Assembly (NCBI GenBank): GCA_018065125.1
Contig: JAGHTY010000207.1
Coordinates: forward strand, 1 to 35,057
Length of the DNA stretch: 35,057 bases
Reading direction: 5' to 3'
Origin: Candidatus Minthousia equi
Lineage (GTDB): Bacteria > Bacteroidota > Bacteroidia > Bacteroidales > Bacteroidaceae
Part shown: piece by piece, positions 10,801 to 29,593 of the stretch
How the letters are laid out: the number at the start of each line of letters is the position of its first letter
Numbering within the stretch: position 1 is the stretch's first letter
Notes under the pieces: model-generated
Database searches by the model: none
What the model was told of the DNA's origin: nothing
The model's input: only the letters and a program-made list of their open reading frames with translations
Program-made: the position numbers and the translations under genes

Positions 10801-13362
10801 TTAAAGAAGTCCTAATGACTCCAATTTCATTTCCAAATCCTGCTCGGTAGGGCAGAGCACGTCTCTTGCCTTACTGCCGTTAGCAGCACCTACAATACCA
10901 GCTCGCTCCAACTGATCCATCAATCGGCCAGCTCGGTTGTAACCAATGGCAAACTTACGCTGAATCAATGAGGTTGAACCTTGTTGATATGTTACTACCA
11001 ATGTAGCTGCTTCACGGAACATTGGGTCGAGTTCCTTCATGTTAACTTCACCAGGAGTCATTGCATCCTCATCACCCTCTTCATGAACAGGGTGTAGTTC
11101 AAATGCGCTGATGTAACCCTGCTGGCTGGCAATGTGGGTGTTGATAGCCTCTACCTCTGGGGTGTCTACGAATGCACACTGAACACGAACTGGTTCTGTT
11201 CCACCTAGATAAAGCATGTCACCACGACCTACCAACTGGTGTGCGCCACCTCTATCCAGAATTACACGACTATCCATCATGCTGGATACACGGAATGCTA
11301 CACGAGCAGGGAAGTTGGTCTTGATGTTACCTGTTACGATGCTGGCTGTAGGTCGCTGGGTAGCAATGATACAGTGAATACCAATGGCACGTGCCAACTG
11401 AGCCAAGCGGCAGATAGGAACTTCTACTTCTTTGCCTGCGGTCATCATCAAGTCGCCATATTCATCGATAATGGTAACGATGTATGGCAGGTAGTGATGG
11501 TAAACAGGATAGTCGCGCTTATGAGTCATTGGCACTTCCTTCTCTGGGTTCAGTTTGCGGTTGATAAACTTCTCGTTGTACTCCTTGATGTTACGCACGC
11601 CTGCACGTTTCAGCAAATCGTAACGGTCGTCCATTTCCTGACAAAGAGATTTCAGGGTTGCCACAACCTTATCTACATCGGTAATGATGGCCTCTTCGTT
11701 ATCAGGCAGCTTTGCCAGATAATGCTTCTCGATAGGAGCATAGATACCAAATTCTACTTTCTTTGGGTCGATAATTACGAATTTCAGTTCGGCAGGATGT
11801 TTCTTATAAAGCAAAGAAGTAACTACTGCGTTCAAACCTACAGACTTACCTTGTCCGGTAGCACCAGCTACCAACATATGAGGTGCTTTTGCCAAATCCA
11901 CCATGAATACATCATTGGTGATGGTTTTACCAAAGGCGATAGGCAGTTCAAACTTGCTTTCCTGGAACTTACGGCTGTTGATGATATCACGCATTGGAAC
12001 AATCTGCGCATTCTTGTTAGGAACCTCAATACCGATGGTTCCCTTTCCTGGGATTGGAGCAATGATACGGATACCTAATGCAGCCAAGCTTAGTGCAATG
12101 TCATCTTCCAGATTCTTGATCTTAGAGATGCGGACACCTTCGGCAGGAGTGATTTCATACAATGTAATGGTAGGACCAACGGTTGCCTGAATGCTGTCGA
12201 TTTCTACACCAAAGCTGTGTAATACGCGGATAATCTTGTTCTTGTTGGCATTCTGCTCTTCCTGGTCGATATCAATTTTCTGGAAGCCAAAGTCCTTCAG
12301 CAAGTTAACGGTAGGGAACTTGTAATTCTCCAGATCCAGACGTGGGTCGTAAGGTTTCTGGTTAATCTTTTCTGCAACTTCAATCTCTGCAGCTGCCTCA
12401 ATGCCAAAGTTAGGATCGGTAGGCAAAGGCTTAACGGCAGTTTTTGTGGCAGCAGGCTGGTCGTTCACAATCACGCCTTCTTCCTCTACCTCTGGCTCAT
12501 CCACAACTGGTGGCTGCTGGATAACAACAGCAGGATCTTCAGGTTCTGGAGTGTATGCAGTTTTTTGTTCCGTGCCTACGGAATTTTTGTTTTCTGCCGA
12601 GGTAGCAATATTTTCCTCGCCTTCTACGTTATTTTCACCCTCGTCTTCATCATCTGTGTCATTACCCTCTGCAACCTTTGTCGTGAAGGAGATGTGGTGA
12701 ATGTATCTTTCAGGATGCAATGCCTTGCGGATGATGTTAATGGTTTCCTTGCTCACAAAGATAAGGAAGGCCAATGCTATGGTAAACAAGGCAATGAGCA
12801 ATCCCGGCACACCTATGTGGTTGATGGTCCATGTAGAGATGAATGCTCCATGGTCTCCACCAGGACGTAGGAAACTGGTGTCGAAAAGATTGGTTGCAAT
12901 GAATCCCAGCAGAACAGAGAACCAGAACATCAGGATAAACAATGAGAAGAACCATTTCCAAAGGCAGATGTCGTAGGCACGTACCAGCTTCAAACCCCAT
13001 ACAAACAGGAACACAGGGATGAAGTAGGCCGCAAATCCAAAGCAACGGTTCATCAGGAAGAATGCCATCTTGGCACCCAGAGAACCTCCATGGTTCGAGA
13101 TTTCCCCATGCTCGTTTGCCATTGCTTCGTCACTCATGCTTTCTACCGCACTCTGGTCCTCGGCACCTGTGAAGATGAATGAGGTAAAGGTAAACAACAT
13201 GTAGATTGCAACCATCATACAGATTAATCCAAGGATAACCTGCATGGAATCGGCCTTCATGATGGTAATGAATTTTCCAGGAGCACCCAATGCGCTCTTG
13301 GTGAATTTATCTAGTTTATCTGTTTCTTCTACTTTAGTATTTTTTTTCTTAGCTTTTGCCAT
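10801..13362 (-). CDS. ftsK: FtsK/SpoIIIE-type DNA translocase
   Basis: N-terminal TM segments, acidic linker, 'HMLVAGATGQGKSVGLNAV', 'DEYGDLMM', C-terminal gamma winged helix 'STSLIQRKFAIGYNRAGRLMDQLERAGIV'. ATG at 13362 preferred over 13407. Confidence 0.96.
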   Translation of the reverse strand: MAKAKKKNTKVEETDKLDKFTKSALGAPGKFITIMKADSMQVILGLICMMVAIYMLFTFTSFIFTGAEDQSAVESMSDEAMANEHGEISNHGGSLGAKMAFFLMNRCFGFAAYFIPVFLFVWGLKLVRAYDICLWKWFFSLFILMFWFSVLLGFIATNLFDTSFLRPGGDHGAFISTWTINHIGVPGLLIALFTIALAFLIFVSKETINIIRKALHPERYIHHISFTTKVAEGNDTDDEDEGENNVEGEENIATSAENKNSVGTEQKTAYTPEPEDPAVVIQQPPVVDEPEVEEEGVIVNDQPAATKTAVKPLPTDPNFGIEAAAEIEVAEKINQKPYDPRLDLENYKFPTVNLLKDFGFQKIDIDQEEQNANKNKIIRVLHSFGVEIDSIQATVGPTITLYEITPAEGVRISKIKNLEDDIALSLAALGIRIIAPIPGKGTIGIEVPNKNAQIVPMRDIINSRKFQESKFELPIAFGKTITNDVFMVDLAKAPHMLVAGATGQGKSVGLNAVVTSLLYKKHPAELKFVIIDPKKVEFGIYAPIEKHYLAKLPDNEEAIITDVDKVVATLKSLCQEMDDRYDLLKRAGVRNIKEYNEKFINRKLNPEKEVPMTHKRDYPVYHHYLPYIVTIIDEYGDLMMTAGKEVEVPICRLAQLARAIGIHCIIATQRPTASIVTGNIKTNFPARVAFRVSSMMDSRVILDRGGAHQLVGRGDMLYLGGTEPVRVQCAFVDTPEVEAINTHIASQQGYISAFELHPVHEEGDEDAMTPGEVNMKELDPMFREAATLVVTYQQGSTSLIQRKFAIGYNRAGRLMDQLERAGIVGAANGSKARDVLCPTEQDLEMKLESLGLL

Positions 13363-15961: not shown

Positions 15962-16045
15962 TACTTTTGCATTGTGTTTTTCATGGTATTAGATTTATAA
16001 GGTTTTTAAAGATTGGTTGTCGTGATGACAACCTTCTTTTTTTTT
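15962..16045 (+). ncRNA. candidate small RNA: promoter-like element followed by ~70 nt ending in an intrinsic terminator
   Basis: TACTTTTGC at 15962-15970, then a 66-70 nt segment ending in GGTTGTC-gtgat-GACAACC-TTcTTTTTTTTT (16015-16045). Confidence 0.4.
16015..16045 (+). terminator. intrinsic terminator
   Basis: Perfect 7-bp stem GGTTGTC/GACAACC, 5-nt loop, followed by a T tract. Confidence 0.88.
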
Positions 16046-16058
16046 ATACACTTTGTAA

Positions 16059-21450: not shown

Positions 21451-22431
21451 ATGTATAAGGCACTACAGACTTTGGCCGGATGGCTATCGCACTACACAAG
21501 CTATTTCATTATTGGAATAGCTGTGCTTACCTATATCTGTCCTCCATTGTTTACGTGGGTAAAAGGAAACACGCAGACCAGTATCTTGGGTTTCATTATG
21601 CTTACCATGGGACTTACACTTACCACGCACGACATGAGGGTGTTGGCTTCTCGTCCTTTCGATATTTTGATAGGTACCCTTGCCCAGTTTACTCTAATGC
21701 CACTTATTGCCTACACACTTACCGTGGGGTTAGGACAAATCATTCCAATAGATAAGAGTATCGTCGTGGGTATCATCCTGGTGGGTTGCTGTCCAGGTGG
21801 AGTAAGTAGTAATATCATGTCGTTCTTGTGTAAAGGTGATGTGGCTTTCTCTGTTGGAATGACAACAGTTTCTACTTTGCTGGCGCCTGTTGTAACACCT
21901 TTGCTCGTTCTGTTTCTTGCAGGCGAACAAGTTGATGTGGATGCCGTGGGAATGTTCCTGAATATTCTGATTGTAACCATCATTCCTGTTGGGATAGGTT
22001 TCTTCTGTAATATGTTCTGGGGCAAGAAATCAGCTTTCATAAAGACACAGGCAGTTATGCCAGCATTCAGTGTACTGGGCTTGGCATGCATTGTAGGTGG
22101 TGTTGTAGCTGCCGTTCACGATCAACTGTTGCAAGAAGGATTTACTTTCTTCCTGGGCGTTTTGGCCATTGTGTTCTGTCATAATTCCCTAGGCTACCTG
22201 TTGGGTTATTCTGTAGGTAGGTTGTTCCACTTTAATAAGGCAAAGAACCGCACCATCTCTATTGAGGTTGGTATGCAGAATGCGGGATTGGCTACAGTAC
22301 TAGCAAGCAAGTTCTTTCTTGCTACCTGTCCTTTGGCTGTTATTCCTTGTGCCGTAAGTTGTGCTTGGCACTCTATTTCGGGTACCATCCTAGCATCTTG
22401 GTTTGCGCATCGGGATTTAAAAAAGGTTTAA
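21451..22431 (+). CDS. bile acid:sodium symporter family protein
   Basis: 'PPLFTWVKGNTQTSILGFIMLTMGLTLT', 'VGCCPGGVSSNIMSFLCKGDVAFSVGMTTVSTLLAPVVTPLL', 'SIEVGMQNAGLATVLASKFF'. Confidence 0.9.
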   Translation: MYKALQTLAGWLSHYTSYFIIGIAVLTYICPPLFTWVKGNTQTSILGFIMLTMGLTLTTHDMRVLASRPFDILIGTLAQFTLMPLIAYTLTVGLGQIIPIDKSIVVGIILVGCCPGGVSSNIMSFLCKGDVAFSVGMTTVSTLLAPVVTPLLVLFLAGEQVDVDAVGMFLNILIVTIIPVGIGFFCNMFWGKKSAFIKTQAVMPAFSVLGLACIVGGVVAAVHDQLLQEGFTFFLGVLAIVFCHNSLGYLLGYSVGRLFHFNKAKNRTISIEVGMQNAGLATVLASKFFLATCPLAVIPCAVSCAWHSISGTILASWFAHRDLKKV

Positions 22432-22480
22432 AAGTTTAAAGGTTTAAAAGTTTAAAGGTTTAAAAGTTTAAAAGTTTAAA
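22425..22480 (+). repeat. 8-bp tandem repeat, seven units of (A/G)GTTTAAA
   Basis: GGTTTAAA AGTTTAAA GGTTTAAA AGTTTAAA GGTTTAAA AGTTTAAA AGTTTAAA; starts inside the last codons of the symporter gene. Confidence 0.95.
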
Positions 22481-22525
22481 AGATATAATCTCTGATCCCT
22501 AATTCACTATTATATAATTTAAGAA

Positions 22526-23955: not shown

Positions 23956-24192
23956 TCACAGAGAAAGTTCCTCCTTGAGATAATCCATTACATAGATAGA
24001 ACTTTGGAAATAAAGGCCTGTTGATTCTCGTTCAATCTTTTCGTAGGTACGCGACTTATATAGTGTGTCAAGGGCTGATTCCAAAGTGTAGCCATAATCC
24101 TCAATGAGTATTTTTGCAAGGTCGGTAGTTAAGCATTCTACCAAAAACTGTTTGTCTTGACGATGTTGCTCTTCCTTTGTACGTTGTTTCAT
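23956..24192 (-). CDS. DUF3791-like small protein
   Basis: 'KFLVECLTTDLAKILIEDYGYTLESALDTLYKSRTYEKIERESTGLYFQSSIYVMDYLKEEL'; ATGA overlap with the DUF3990-like gene. Confidence 0.65.
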   Translation of the reverse strand: MKQRTKEEQHRQDKQFLVECLTTDLAKILIEDYGYTLESALDTLYKSRTYEKIERESTGLYFQSSIYVMDYLKEELSL

Positions 24193-24674
24193 AGTATCCC
24201 GATTTTAATAAGGTGAGCTATTGCTTTTTTTGATCCAAAAAAATACTGGAAAGTTTCTTCTTTGTATTGAATCTCTTGCATGAAGCGTTCTTCATCAATG
24301 TACTCCATGTCAAGAAGACGCATTTGCTTAGCTATGGTGTCATCTGCAATAGGACCATATACAATGTCATGGTTATGCAAGGGCATTTCTGTTTTGTTGC
24401 GTCTGTTAGCTCTTACGAAGCGTGACCACTCAAGGTTGTAATGTTGGAAGATTTTGACGTCCAAGGTTCCAGATGTAATAAGTGAATCGTCAAATTCAAA
24501 TTCTGTAACAATAGGAGTACCTTCTCCTTCACGGTCAACAACTGTGTCTGCCATTTCACGAGCCTGCTGAAGGTTTGCGCTAAGATAAAATCCTTGTCCA
24601 AAATCTTTGCCTCGTCTTCCTCGTGTTAGGTCAATGGCATCAATCTCAGTATTTGAGCCATGATATAGTCTCAT
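24189..24674 (-). CDS. DUF3990-like protein, predicted ADP-ribosyltransferase-like fold
   Basis: 'MRLYHGSNTEIDAIDLTRGRRGKDFGQGFYLSANLQQAREMA' and 'HDIVYGPIADD'. ATG at 24674 overlaps the upstream stop (ATGA). Confidence 0.8.
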   Translation of the reverse strand: MRLYHGSNTEIDAIDLTRGRRGKDFGQGFYLSANLQQAREMADTVVDREGEGTPIVTEFEFDDSLITSGTLDVKIFQHYNLEWSRFVRANRRNKTEMPLHNHDIVYGPIADDTIAKQMRLLDMEYIDEERFMQEIQYKEETFQYFFGSKKAIAHLIKIGIL

Positions 24675-24898
24675 AGTATCAATGCGCCTCCATTTCGCAA
24701 GCATATATGCGCACAATCTTCAACAGCATCTTCAATAGAGAAAGTATGCACAGTGTTGTAGTGCTTCTGAAGGTACGCCAATCCTTGGTGTTTTTGCAAA
24801 TACCTATAAGCCTGACCATTCGTGAGCGAGAAACGTTCTGCGAATGCTCCTACACAGCAAACAATATATTCTAATACGTCTGTTTGATATTTGCTCAT
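24671..24898 (-). CDS. DUF3791-like protein
   Basis: 'FAERFSLTNGQAYRYLQKHQGLAYLQKHYNTVHTFSIEDAVEDCAHICLRNGG'. Confidence 0.75.
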   Translation of the reverse strand: MSKYQTDVLEYIVCCVGAFAERFSLTNGQAYRYLQKHQGLAYLQKHYNTVHTFSIEDAVEDCAHICLRNGGALIL

Positions 24899-25105: not shown

Positions 25106-25864
25106 TCAGTCTCCCTTTTTTGCTTTTTTGTTGGAATGTTCCTTTCTTGCTTCTCTTAATTCGTCTAGATAACGAGCTGTAATAACACCTGATGGTAAAG
25201 CAATAACGGCAACGCCAAACAAGGATGAAATCATGCTAATACATCTACCAATATCTGTTACGGGGCAAAGGTCTCCATAGCCAACAGTTGTAAGTGTAAC
25301 GGTTGCCCAGTATATTGCATCAAAGAAAGAAGTAAATGTTTTTGCTCCTGTCTCTGGGTTTATTTTAGGCTCAACATTAAACATTATCAATGCTGTAACA
25401 AAAATGTAAAGTAGAGCGATTAGCAATACGGAAAATAGTATTCTTCTTTCTAACTTTAGAATATTAAAAAACAATACAATAGACCTTGACAGTCGAAGCA
25501 ATTTGAAGACTCTAAAGATTTTTATTAACCTTATGCAACGAAATACTTTGTAAGCAGGGTTTATAAGGCTAATTGCAGGAAGTATGGAAAGCACGTCTAT
25601 TATTGCCATTATATGAAAGGGGTATTCCATATAAGAACGTGTACTTTTGTTGATTGTTAGGTCTGCTATATACCATCTTGCAAGATAGTCAATAACAAAT
25701 AATATGGTTGTTGCTATTTCAATCGTAGTAAACCAAGGTTGACTTTCCATACACATCAATGGGAGCAAACTAATAATAACTACAATAAAAGTTGAGATAT
25801 TATATATCTTTGCTCCGATACCTGTTTCTCCTTCCAATATACTATAGAGTACTTGTTTTGCCAT
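25106..25864 (-). CDS. voltage-gated potassium channel-like ion channel (6TM)
   Basis: S4-like 'RCIRLIKIFRVFKLLRLSRS' and selectivity filter 'TVTLTTVGYGDLCPVT'. Confidence 0.92.
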   Translation of the reverse strand: MAKQVLYSILEGETGIGAKIYNISTFIVVIISLLPLMCMESQPWFTTIEIATTILFVIDYLARWYIADLTINKSTRSYMEYPFHIMAIIDVLSILPAISLINPAYKVFRCIRLIKIFRVFKLLRLSRSIVLFFNILKLERRILFSVLLIALLYIFVTALIMFNVEPKINPETGAKTFTSFFDAIYWATVTLTTVGYGDLCPVTDIGRCISMISSLFGVAVIALPSGVITARYLDELREARKEHSNKKAKKGD

Positions 25865-25878
25865 TCTGTAATTGCTTT

Positions 25879-28800
25879 TTATTTTGTGGAAATATCGTCT
25901 GGTAGGATTTCTGATAAAGTGTCTTTGGTCAAGTTTGGTTCAGAGGCCAAACGTGATGCTTGGTTCTCAATAGTTTTTTCAAATAAATTGCGAACATAAC
26001 GTCCATTGCCGAAATTCTTGTCTTTATGTTCAATAGCATTCCTGATGACACAATGTAATACATCAATAGCTTCATTCTTTATGGTATATTCATGTTTAGA
26101 TAAACTAAGTTTGAAAATTTCAACTAATTCATCTTCTGAATAATCTATGAAATGAATATATCTATTGAATCTTGACTGTAATCCAGGGTTGGAATTAATG
26201 AAATCCTTCATTTCGTTCGAATAACCAGCAAGTATAACTACTAGTTTGTCACGGTCATCTTCCATTCGTTTCAACAATGTAGATATGGCTTCCATTCCAT
26301 AATCATTGTTACTGCCCTGCACTAAAGAATAAGCCTCGTCAATAAAAAGAACACCATCTAAGGCAGAATCAATTATTTTGTTGGTCTTGACTGCTGTTTG
26401 TCCCACATATTCTGCAACAAGTCCAGATCTGTCCGTCTCTACCAAATGGCCTTTCTTTAGAATACCAAGGTCTTGATAAATGTTTGCAATAATACGTGCA
26501 ACAGTAGTTTTGCCTGTTCCTGGATTACCTGTAAATACACAGTGATATGAGATTGGTGTTGTTTTAAGACCATTCTTCTTTCTGGTTTGCTGTATTTTGA
26601 TAAAATTGATTAATCTGTTTACTTCTTCTTTTACTAGGTGCAAACCGATTAATTCCTGAAGTTCATTTTGAGAATTAGATGGTATTATTTCAGGCTGAAT
26701 TACATCTTCTTTTACTTCAGAAGGATTTCTGGTTGCATTGAATATTTTTTCCACTTCTTCAATCGTGTTTACCATTAGTTGAGGAAATAATTTGTCTTCA
26801 CATCTTTTTATTATACCAAGATTTTCTAACTGGTCTATTATTCTACTTGCTCTATTATAACCGATGCAAAAATTTCTTTGTACAAAACTGGTGCTAATAC
26901 ATTTTTTCTCTACTATAACTTTAGCAACATCTTCTATAATTGGGTCATATCCCGAAAGGGTATTCTTTGTTTTACCTGTCCAATCTGTATCTTTAATTGT
27001 TGCCAAAGGTTTGCCATCTGTTGTTAGATCTTTTGCTTTCATCAAGTTAGCAAGGATTTCACTTTCTCGTGCATCAATTGTACCATCTGCTTTTGCAATG
27101 GCAGAAGCAAAACGATAAAGGTGTACCATATACTGTGACATTAAGTTCTTGTCAACATATTGAAATGCGTGTTGTAGGAAAAATTGTCCAAATGGGATAG
27201 GACTGTTATTTTTATTTTTTATAAAGTGATCAAAAAGTTTTCGGGTATTAGGCGCAACTTTGTCACGATAATCTGTCAATCTAGAATAGTCTAAAATGAA
27301 ATCAGGTGATGATATATTGTTTGCAAAAAGTAACAAACCTATTTCTTCAGCATTTCCACTATTAAGTTTATATCCTAGGTCTGAATAGCATCGATAGCTA
27401 TCCATTAACATTGTAAAGGTTATTTTGTCATCTAAAGGCCATGGAGATCCGTCTTTATTGGTTAAGGACATCATTCTGTCTATTTCTTTTCTTACTTCAT
27501 GTTTTCTTGTTGCAGACTTCAGGAATCCACATAACGATCTGGCTTCTGTTTGCATAAGATCAAACCGTTCTTTTGTAAGTATGGGTACTAAAATGGTGGG
27601 TTTATTATTTTCGTCTTTATCCCTGATGTTTTCTTCTTGTTGATTCTCTGTTTTTATATCATCCAATATTATTTTATCAAATTTACTATTGATTGAATTT
27701 CTTGGAACTACATTGTTGTATTCTTCTAATGAACCTGTGAAATTTTCTGCGGCCTTTGAGTTGCTAAACAGAAATGTTGTAGAGAATAGTTTCAATGGAT
27801 TCTTATAACAAGAAAACTTAATCTCTCCATATTCAAATATTAAGAGTTGGGGATTGTATGCAAATCTCTTATCGGGGCCTCCATTTTTATTGACATAAGT
27901 CCATGTTGTCCCAAGTAAATTGGAGTCAAAAGGACGGATGTCTTTTTCCTGAAAGCGTGTACTTTTGTATGAAATATTAATTTCATCATAGTTATATACA
28001 GAAAAATCCGACGTATTTTTTGCAACAATAATGAAACATGGATAAAGGTATATTTTGTAACAGCCATCATCAAAAACAGGAATGTCGTAGTCGGAATGAA
28101 TAAAGTTAAAAACACCAACATAAACAGATGCTTCTTTTCTCTCAACAAGATTTATAGCAGAAGCTTTAGTCTGATTGTTTGAAACTTTATTATATACATT
28201 CCAGATACGCTCGGAGGTTAATAAAGTTTCAAATCTTTCACAAATGTGCTCAAATCTTTCTCGTGAATCATCATTTAGACTGGCATCGGCATTATACTGA
28301 CTTGCTTCAATGAGATTTCGCGCTGTTTGTAGCTTACTCTCATGTTCTGCCAGTATGTCTTTATATTTTTCTTTCCTATCTATCTCTATTTTCTGCTTTA
28401 AGTTGGAAACTATACCTTCCTCATCTTCAATTTCATCAGCTAATTCACAGCATTTTATGAATGAATTTAGAATCAGTTTCTTTGTGCTGTCTTCTTTGCA
28501 TGATGCAAATGCGGATTTTGCATCCACCAAGTATTGAGGAGTTTTCTTGCTTATAGAGTTCTCACCATTACCATACCAATAAAAGTATTCTGATAATTGC
28601 GATAACAAAAGATACATAAATATTATGGCAGGAATAAAGCAGATGTATGTACCTTTTACCGCTAGAAAAATAAATAATGCCATAGCTAATAAGCATCCTA
28701 TAATACCAACGACATAAGCGGAAGGAGAGTTTTGGGCTCTTTGTTTATCTATGCTTTGTGTATTAACTAATGGACTTGCGTTTTTATGTCCGTCTATCTT

Positions 28801-28971
28801 TTTTCTACTATAGAACCCAGTACCAGGGATACCTGTGTTTACATAAGTACCTTTTTGCCCAAATGTCATACTTGCACCTCTAACGCCAACAGAAGTACTG
28901 ATACCCCCCTTGCTTACATTAACGTGTAACCCTGGTGCAATTTTGATGCGTTTACGATAATTCCATGCCAT
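25879..28971 (-). CDS. multidomain protein: DUF4236 + two TM helices + coiled coil + TerB-like + FtsK-gamma-like winged helix + CbxX/CfqX-type AAA+ ATPase
   Basis: N-terminus 'MAWNYRKRIKIAPGLHVNVSKGGISTSVGVRGASMTFGQKGTYVNTGIPGTGFYSRKK' (DUF4236); 'FASAIAKADGTIDARESEILANLM' (TerB-like); 'STSFVQRNFCIGYNRASRIIDQLENLGII' (FtsK gamma-like); 'CVFTGNPGTGKTTVARIIANIY...GVLFIDEAYSLVQG' (AAA+). ATG at 28971 preferred over GTG at 28992. Confidence 0.88.
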   Translation of the reverse strand: MAWNYRKRIKIAPGLHVNVSKGGISTSVGVRGASMTFGQKGTYVNTGIPGTGFYSRKKIDGHKNASPLVNTQSIDKQRAQNSPSAYVVGIIGCLLAMALFIFLAVKGTYICFIPAIIFMYLLLSQLSEYFYWYGNGENSISKKTPQYLVDAKSAFASCKEDSTKKLILNSFIKCCELADEIEDEEGIVSNLKQKIEIDRKEKYKDILAEHESKLQTARNLIEASQYNADASLNDDSRERFEHICERFETLLTSERIWNVYNKVSNNQTKASAINLVERKEASVYVGVFNFIHSDYDIPVFDDGCYKIYLYPCFIIVAKNTSDFSVYNYDEINISYKSTRFQEKDIRPFDSNLLGTTWTYVNKNGGPDKRFAYNPQLLIFEYGEIKFSCYKNPLKLFSTTFLFSNSKAAENFTGSLEEYNNVVPRNSINSKFDKIILDDIKTENQQEENIRDKDENNKPTILVPILTKERFDLMQTEARSLCGFLKSATRKHEVRKEIDRMMSLTNKDGSPWPLDDKITFTMLMDSYRCYSDLGYKLNSGNAEEIGLLLFANNISSPDFILDYSRLTDYRDKVAPNTRKLFDHFIKNKNNSPIPFGQFFLQHAFQYVDKNLMSQYMVHLYRFASAIAKADGTIDARESEILANLMKAKDLTTDGKPLATIKDTDWTGKTKNTLSGYDPIIEDVAKVIVEKKCISTSFVQRNFCIGYNRASRIIDQLENLGIIKRCEDKLFPQLMVNTIEEVEKIFNATRNPSEVKEDVIQPEIIPSNSQNELQELIGLHLVKEEVNRLINFIKIQQTRKKNGLKTTPISYHCVFTGNPGTGKTTVARIIANIYQDLGILKKGHLVETDRSGLVAEYVGQTAVKTNKIIDSALDGVLFIDEAYSLVQGSNNDYGMEAISTLLKRMEDDRDKLVVILAGYSNEMKDFINSNPGLQSRFNRYIHFIDYSEDELVEIFKLSLSKHEYTIKNEAIDVLHCVIRNAIEHKDKNFGNGRYVRNLFEKTIENQASRLASEPNLTKDTLSEILPDDISTK

Positions 28972-29203
28972 AATTATATTTATATCCAGCACCTAGGTGT
29001 ATATAATATAGAAGCGTGGTGCTGATATGCCACCACATCGTAGTTTGAAGGTCCTGAGAAAACCCTGAGATACAGATATGAGGATAGCAGCCCACGCTAT
29101 ATGCGCAGGGAGCCATCATGACATTCTTTGTATCTCGTCTTGAAAGTTTCTCAGGTTTTCAAACTACAAAGAAAGCATAACGCTTCCATAAATTCCAATA
29201 AGT
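28972..29203 (-). ncRNA. structured 5' leader of the DUF4236-AAA/channel operon
   Basis: 128-nt rod (29040-29167) with nested helices 29040-29049/29158-29167, 29053-29061/29147-29155, 29067-29074/29129-29136, 29083-29088/29112-29117, 29091-29093/29108-29110, 29095-29097/29103-29105; plus hairpin 29016-29021/29031-29036. Confidence 0.7.
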
Positions 29204-29206
29204 TCT

Positions 29207-29215
29207 GCAAATATA
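29207..29215 (-). promoter_or_regulatory. -7 promoter element driving the structured leader
   Basis: Minus strand TATATTTGC (TAnnTTTGC), about 40 nt upstream of the rod. Confidence 0.55.
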
Positions 29216-29355
29216 CACTTTCTTTCTTAAAGTTAATAAAATAGATAGAAAAACTTTATGTGTTTAATTTTGGAATGTCTAAATATACTTATCCATGTTT
29301 GACGGTTTTGTCGTGGCACAGTATCCCATGCGTAACAACAAGTTCATGCGTAGGC

Positions 29356-29417
29356 TCGATTGGTGTTCGATTGAGGTTCGAATAATCCTCGATTCAGGGT
29401 CGCTTATAGAATCGAAG
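29356..29417. repeat. 11-bp-periodic TCGATT array (6 degenerate copies)
   Basis: TCGATT/TCGATT/TCGAAT/TCGATT/TCGCTT/TCGAAG starting at 29356, 29367, 29378, 29389, 29400, 29412. Confidence 0.7.
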
Positions 29418-29593
29418 GTTGTATGACGAACACAGGTGTTCAATGAGAAAAAAGTCTAAGTCAACAACATGCCTACGGAATTTCATTCCGCTGCGGATGT
29501 AACAATATTCCTCTGCCCACGGAACGCATATTTGATATATTTCCGATTTTCGATATTTAGGAAGCTCAAAAAAAACATAAAAAACACGATTTT

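Follow-up and report, generated by a model that had tools for sequence, protein, structure and literature searches.

Genes and features of the locus

The window, by which we mean the whole stretch of 35,057 nucleotides that was analysed (Candidatus Minthousia equi, assembly GCA_018065125.1, contig JAGHTY010000207.1), carries on its minus strand a promoter box, a structured leader element and, behind it, two genes in the same orientation. The gene that follows a leader is here called its cargo, and all coordinates are those of the window:

29207-29215, minus strand: -7 box of the Bacteroidetes type, TATATTTGC, recognised by sequence; the box is conserved in 161 aligned copies
29011-29187, minus strand: conserved leader element, rod and base, GGAAGCG...CGCTTC, delimited by its conserved boundaries
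25879-28971, minus strand: cargo gene, encoding a DUF4236 - FtsK_gamma - AAA - AAA_lid_6 protein (Pfam)
25106-25864, minus strand: second gene, encoding an ion-channel protein (Ion_trans, Pfam), separated from the first by a 14 nt gap and on the same strand

The preliminary description of this DNA, made from the letters alone, had placed the TATATTTGC element and the ATG at 28971 correctly; this ATG lies 39 nt past the rod, and transcription would start at about 29200. The domain order DUF4236 - FtsK_gamma - AAA - AAA_lid_6 encoded by 25879-28971 is unusual and gave weak IetA and TRIP13-like matches in PADLOC, and possibly the DUF4236-AAA gene and the ion-channel gene constitute a membrane-acting conflict system. 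Adjoining these two genes, just behind them, a DUF3990 protein and a small partner are encoded at 23956-24716 on the minus strand, with a match to the PADLOC candidate defence family PDC-M13. Elsewhere in the window, an 8-bp unit (AAAGGTTT/AAAAGTTT) is repeated in an array at 22422-22490, in the gap separating two genes, and a 40-nt direct repeat, 78% identical, occurs at 12573-12612 and 29470-29509, the second copy being upstream of the leader. A search of 28900-29500 with Rfam cmscan on both strands found no match up to an E value of 5, in keeping with the earlier remark that the leader was not recognised as a known Rfam class; the sole Rfam match elsewhere in the window is a copy of FopS at 15974-16046 on the plus strand (RF04319, 65.9 bits).

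Rod structure and strand of the leader

The minus-strand RNA of 29016-29203 has a minimum free energy of -70.8 kcal/mol against -43.6 +/- 4.0 for shuffled sequences (z -6.8, 0 of 200 shuffles). The rod is built from the following parts:

29171-29187, minus strand: small 5' hairpin GGAAGC-gttat-GCTTTC (fold; swap z -5.4)
29171-29187 with 29011-29017, minus strand: P1, the first strand of the 5' hairpin paired with ACGCTTC (swap z -6.3)
29158-29167, minus strand: 5' strand of P4, GTAGTTTGAA, pairing with TTCAAACTAC at 29040-29049 (covariation, swap test z -24.9)
29147-29155, minus strand: 5' strand of P5, CCTGAGAAA, pairing with TTTCTCAGG at 29053-29061 (covariation, swap z -12.0)
29129-29136, minus strand: 5' strand of P6, GAGATACA, pairing with TGTATCTC at 29067-29074 (covariation, swap z -28.9)
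29083-29117, minus strand: apical hairpin with conserved tandem G.U pairs (covariation, swap z -6.1)
29040-29074, minus strand: 3' strands of P6, P5 and P4 (fold and covariation)

All the rod arms named in the preliminary description are present where it put them. It had drawn the leader at 29016-29203; the structured minus-strand RNA is indeed there, but the conserved element occupies 29011-29187 (covariance model match at 29009-29187, 149.8 bits) and the structure extends further downstream, and the small 5' hairpin, which exists, lies at 29171-29187 instead of about 29173-29189. The plus strand of 29016-29203 is also a strong folder (z -6.4), so that the strand is not assignable from folding alone. 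The wobble pairs of the apical stem, however, are kept among 98 relatives (U.G in 86/98, G.U in 95/98 and U.G in 87/98), which makes the minus strand the likelier functional one, and the conserved -7 box and the co-directional gene, better evidence on the strand, point the same way. The minus-strand reading proposed before thus appears well founded.

Covariation was assessed on 100 copies fitted to the model, giving 98 distinct rows. Across these rows 95.3% of the rod cells are paired, 26 of the 50 rod pairs contain double changes, and the check for covariation in homologues that the preliminary description had called for turned out strong: double-changed cells numbered 495, where shuffles gave 144 +/- 11 and slid partners no more than 87. 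These exact figures lean towards the structure, since the copies were aligned to a related structure and are themselves related. P4, P5 and P6, however, also came top in the swap tests and when all column pairs were ranked by mutual information. The swap and shuffle statistics, here and below, ignore kinship among the copies.

Further helices were considered and set aside. Covariation in the near set was unsupportive for P3 and P2 at the rod base (z +1.0 and +0.2), an alternative 3' hairpin GTGG/CCAC was not significant (z -1.2), and a 5' terminal hairpin ahead of the rod, present in 195/204 copies against 174/204 shuffled ones, is not claimed because it stands little above the shuffles and its consensus form is absent from the window.

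Alternative helices and a long-range pair

The single rod seen in the preliminary description is conserved, but it is one of two conserved foldings, and the mini-ORF at its base and a long-range pair had been missed. The strands concerned are:

29124-29132, minus strand: middle strand of PX, TACAAAGAA, whose alternative partner is the mini-ORF strand TTCTTTGTA at 29165-29173
29140-29146, minus strand: AltB strand CTTTCAA, with the alternative partner TTTGAAA at 29157-29163
29018-29024, minus strand: rod tail CAGCACC, forming P11 with GGTGCTG at 28987-28993 (duplex -14.1 in the window)
28975-29010, minus strand: P10, an AT-rich hairpin between rod and start codon with the loop GGTGCTG (fold -3.7 kcal/mol)

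The swap test, which takes no account of kinship, gave PX a z of -8.4 in near copies and -6.5 in distant ones; AltB (TTGAAAA with TTTTCAA) reached -8.6 in near copies and was not significant in distant ones, and AltC, the apical strand with the tail, reached -4.1 and -5.1, respectively. AltA is a weak accompaniment of the PX-side state, and control segment pairs were flat. PX, AltB and AltC exclude parts of the rod (P4-P6, P1 and the apical stem), and since these exclusive helices covary as well we read the RNA as bistable, forming either a 5' and a 3' arm or one rod. The 5' half of the window element, folded alone, forms PX. The conserved pairings suggest that the leader RNA is bistable; against this, single-sequence folds are dominated by the rod state.

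The rod tail is usually CAGTTCC, complementary to a stretch, often in a hairpin loop, ahead of the start codon; a hairpin with this loop motif was found in 106/204 copies against 26 shuffled ones. In 140 unbiased copies the energy of P11 was -9.03 kcal/mol within a copy against -7.24 with partners swapped (z -11.8), and the signal was retained in 68 copies with a variant tail (z -11.4) and in 23 distant copies (z -5.5). At least six sequence solutions of this pair occur, among them CAGTTCC/GGAACTG, TTGGCTC/GAGCCAA, AAGTCCC/GGGACTT and CAGCACC/GGTGCTG, the last being that of the window, which is thus a variant-tail copy. In distant lineages (L335-L355) the rod ends in CCCACGCTTTTT, such that P1 or AltC followed by the T run resembles an intrinsic terminator; transcription attenuation may be an older mode of the leader.

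The mini-ORF at the rod base

At 29164-29178 on the minus strand the window has a mini-ORF, ATG CTT TCT TTG TAG (MLSL*), whose start, short length and frame are conserved in relatives. In the family it reads ATG-CTT-ATC-TTG-stop or a close variant of 3-9 codons. The counts were made on 119 copies gathered without requiring its motif: the start is ATG in 110/119 and GTG or TTG in most others, and the frame closes within nine codons, at TAA, TAG or TGA, in 116 of the 118 copies scored. Where codon 5 is not a stop, a stop triplet in P5 is in frame in 50/59 copies, against 20/58 where codon 5 is a stop (Fisher 2.4e-8, or 1.9e-4 on distinct strings, shared ancestry still being within the test). The codon-5 stop signal is due in part to the PX pairing of TTGTA. 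From this contrast the frame appears to be kept, and the mini-ORF may be translated. Its peptide sequence is variable and has no conserved motif. It is present in intermediate lineages and absent from many distant ones that retain the rod and P11, and therefore it cannot be a universal sensor.

Distribution of the family

The window leader belongs to a large family of switch-like RNA leaders in Bacteroidota that appears to be undescribed. With the 128-nt rod as query, 13 of 61 genomes were seen to contain relatives, with four at most in any of them. With a consensus query, 189 of 400 genomes of the same family proved to carry the element, representing 19 of 29 genera, the copy numbers from this query being lower bounds because two candidates were scored per genome. 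A covariance model built from 18 copies was positive in 67 of 248 genomes of the order, with up to 11 copies in one genome, and in five genomes from other orders of the same class. Among the matches listed by a pattern scan of named genomes were Bacteroides, Phocaeicola, Prevotella, Parabacteroides, Alistipes, Butyricimonas and Muribaculaceae; a few listed under Staphylococcus or Clostridia probably carry a wrong label or come from mis-binned sequences. The element also occurs on seven plasmid records and a few contigs of viral collections.

When 161 flanked copies were aligned, the order was the -7 box TAtTTTTGCA, strongly conserved across these copies, then a brief stretch 5' of the rod, the rod itself (GAAGCG to CGCTTC) and finally the next start codon. 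The first ATG-initiated ORF begins at a median of 50 nt past the rod (201 usable copies), and the distance falls between 30 and 70 nt in 163/201 copies against 15/155 on the divergent side. Covariation, the promoter box and this fixed distance to a co-directional gene support the riboswitch-like structured leader of the preliminary description; the effector RNA that it had offered as another option found no support.

Cargo genes

The leader had been described as that of the DUF4236-AAA operon. It does precede that gene, but a specific link was rejected, for the cargo is unrelated between copies, and the 201 downstream genes fall into 103 unrelated clusters. They include DarT, GIY-YIG, HSDR_N, a TOTE-type helicase and an Erm-type methylase, as well as GNAT and MBOAT enzymes, surface proteins with LRRs and a large number of products that are lipoprotein-like or unknown, such that antibiotic-resistance and defence genes are found among more than 100 kinds of cargo.

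On the plasmid pBUN1 (locus L201) blaMUN-1 stands behind a leader. Beta-lactamases of the MUN/cfxA type were nevertheless discarded as regular cargo, since a search of 301 genomes yielded four identical MUN-1 copies in one genome. That genome (G090) has them on four contigs, at least one with a leader about 50 nt upstream; none of the leader sites listed for another genome coincides with the 67%-identical homologue that it encodes, and the other homologues in the 301-genome search are at most 45% identical.

Mobility and exchange of cargo

In pBUN1 the order is integrase, primase, toprim, MobV, leader and blaMUN-1, and in a Parabacteroides plasmid it is toprim, a further gene, leader and a DarT-domain gene. 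A MobV-like gene, called by its contextual resemblance to pBUN1, is directly upstream in 30 of the 126 copies with a callable upstream gene.

Pairs of loci that share this mobilizable backbone upstream (up to 3 kb, at 90-95% identity) switch cargo at the 3' end of the rod, and where the cargo is the same but the upstream DNA is not, similarity breaks off around the promoter box. Two loci (L199 and L257) have the same cargo and clearly different 3' parts of the leader, a pattern expected if exchange takes place by recombination within the conserved leader. No general similarity was found following the cargo genes, where likeness mostly tracks shared cargo or later genes; this lack of a generally shared sequence 3' of the cargo leaves a two-site cassette system unsupported, and an attC-like cassette array was rejected for want of a general second site beyond the cargo. 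Nor is a MITE or insertion element landing at random supported, given that the leader keeps to one strand and a set distance with respect to the gene that follows.

Proposed mechanism and alternatives

We favour, with a probability of roughly 0.55, the reading that the element is a cis-regulatory leader RNA, bistable and linked to a promoter, which has spread across accessory genes. Comparison of the copies shows that the RNA downstream of the -7 box can form either the rod (P1, P4-P6) or two arms, of which one joins the mini-ORF strand to the middle segment (PX, accompanied by AltB and weakly by AltA) and the other joins the apical strand to the tail (AltC); through P11 the rod tail also pairs with the hairpin loop about 20-30 nt ahead of the cargo start codon. 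The balance between the states would be set during transcription and, where the mini-ORF is present, a ribosome on it would melt PX and shift that balance, which would decide if the 3' domain (P1, AltC, P11-P10) promotes or prevents expression of the cargo. Leader and promoter would be passed together between mobilizable elements and chromosomal loci by recombination, so that a single control would come to govern a wide range of unrelated accessory genes. Putative steps in this scheme, drawn from the sequences, are transcription from the box, co-transcription with the cargo and the switching.

The main rival is a metabolite-binding riboswitch, which we consider unlikely. The rod and the apical domain of such an orphan riboswitch would bind a metabolite or an ion and thereby choose between the helices, the mini-ORF being incidental or acquired later. 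Several copies per genome ahead of many unrelated genes, the conserved apical sequence with its wobble pairs, the mutually exclusive conserved helices and the distant copies without a mini-ORF would all suit it; however, the mini-ORF frame is apparently kept, and the cargo has no common pathway hinting at a ligand.

A translational attenuator of the tetQ/erm type, in which ribosomes stalled by a drug on the mini-ORF would change the fold of the leader and so unmask the cargo start site, seems to us improbable. The mini-ORF does sit in a pairing strand, there are resistance genes among the cargo (the Erm-type gene of locus L069 and MUN-1), and tetQ is a Bacteroides precedent. Nevertheless, when a ribosome was placed on the mini-ORF of 98 copies, the unpaired probability at the cargo start was 0.520 vs 0.527, in a secondary-structure model that takes in neither the P11 pseudoknot nor kinetics, and shuffling the 3' region did not make the start site more accessible. 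The idea that folding masks the cargo start was discarded for this lack of effect, and a mini-ORF ribosome that leaves start access as it was does not support the simplest attenuator. The variable peptide and the fact that resistance genes are a minority, most cargo being of other kinds, also speak against it.

It is quite improbable that the element acts without switching, as a stabilising or processed leader or as a small RNA with read-through, whether by protecting the mRNA, by offering an RNase III cut or by acting in trans. Such roles would be served by the long double-stranded rod of high stability and, in distant copies, by rods ending in the terminator-like T run; but the covariation of the exclusive helices and of P11 exceeds the needs of stability, the spacing to the cargo ATG is fixed, and a T5 run follows the rod in 7.5% of near copies only, which argues against a small RNA.

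We also hold it highly improbable that ribosomes which initiate on the mini-ORF and terminate at the foot of the rod, within P5 at the latest, are then carried over the intact rod by way of P11/P10 to the cargo start, although, if true, this hand-over across the rod would be a bacterial counterpart of ribosome shunting, serving any cargo about 50 nt downstream.

Least credible is an element acting at the DNA level on mobilizable elements, with the folded strand as its active form (an attC-like site, a single-strand origin or a transposon derivative): it would agree with the MobV gene adjoining about a quarter of the copies, with the sharp change of cargo at the rod 3' end and with the wobble positions, which folded-strand asymmetry would likewise preserve, but not with the conserved promoter box and fixed start-codon distance, the covarying pair that reaches the cargo start region, the lack of a second shared site beyond the cargo, or the absence of mobilization genes near most copies.

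Significance and comparison with known systems

A large, conserved RNA family with no place in Rfam thus appears to serve widely in the control of accessory genes of Bacteroidota, gut species included, with lipoproteins, DarT- and restriction-like genes, an Erm-type methylase and the MUN-1 beta-lactamase among its cargo. One leader on mobilizable elements with exchangeable cargo could give arriving genes a ready-made regulation, and may represent a shared, mobile control device for gene cargo. Its signal, once identified, would predict the switching of more than 100 kinds of genes, and the exclusive helices, defined to the base, together with the covarying long-range pair make mutational tests straightforward. 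A search of the openly licensed literature found no prior description of the family, and one may possibly exist outside these papers; the kind of element, a structured cis-regulatory leader, is known, and what appears to be new is this particular family, the range of unrelated cargo over which it has spread, and its mobile nature.

FopS, of which the window has a copy, is a trans-acting, multicopy Bacteroides RNA family of about 70 nt (RF04319; PMC11697453) that is bound by RbpB and represses polysaccharide-utilisation operons in B. thetaiotaomicron (PMC11697453). The leader is likewise a multicopy RNA family in Bacteroides, but the element has no FopS match. With integron cassettes and their attC sites it shares a folded repeat adjoining exchangeable cargo on mobile elements, whereas the leader lies upstream of its gene with a promoter and conservation at the RNA level, and no arrays were seen.

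Closer parallels are found among regulatory leaders. In E. coli the toiL uORF of topAI-yjhQ is derepressed by several classes of ribosome-targeting drugs, and there too a leader uORF is tied to RNA refolding, ahead of a toxin-type gene (PMC12121999); toiL is, however, described for one operon, whereas the window leader belongs to a conserved family with diverse cargo. For tetQ on CTnDOT of Bacteroides, the passage of PMC5418344 that cites Wang et al. 2005 describes leader control by translational attenuation. The tetQ/erm leaders resemble the present one in their very short leader ORF, in hairpins that compete with one another and in serving a resistance gene carried by a mobile element; unlike them, the family has a much larger covarying rod, a pairing over long range, cargo of more than 100 kinds, a start site without predicted masking and no conserved peptide motif. 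The tetQ leader peptide has 3 residues.

Broad-regulon riboswitches, such as c-di-GMP-I, place one RNA structure before many unrelated genes, and the family is like them in its several copies per genome and its mutually exclusive helices; it differs in showing no Rfam relation (E to 5), in having a mini-ORF within the switching strand and in being swapped among mobilizable elements. By analogy, the leader would work most like leader attenuators and riboswitches.
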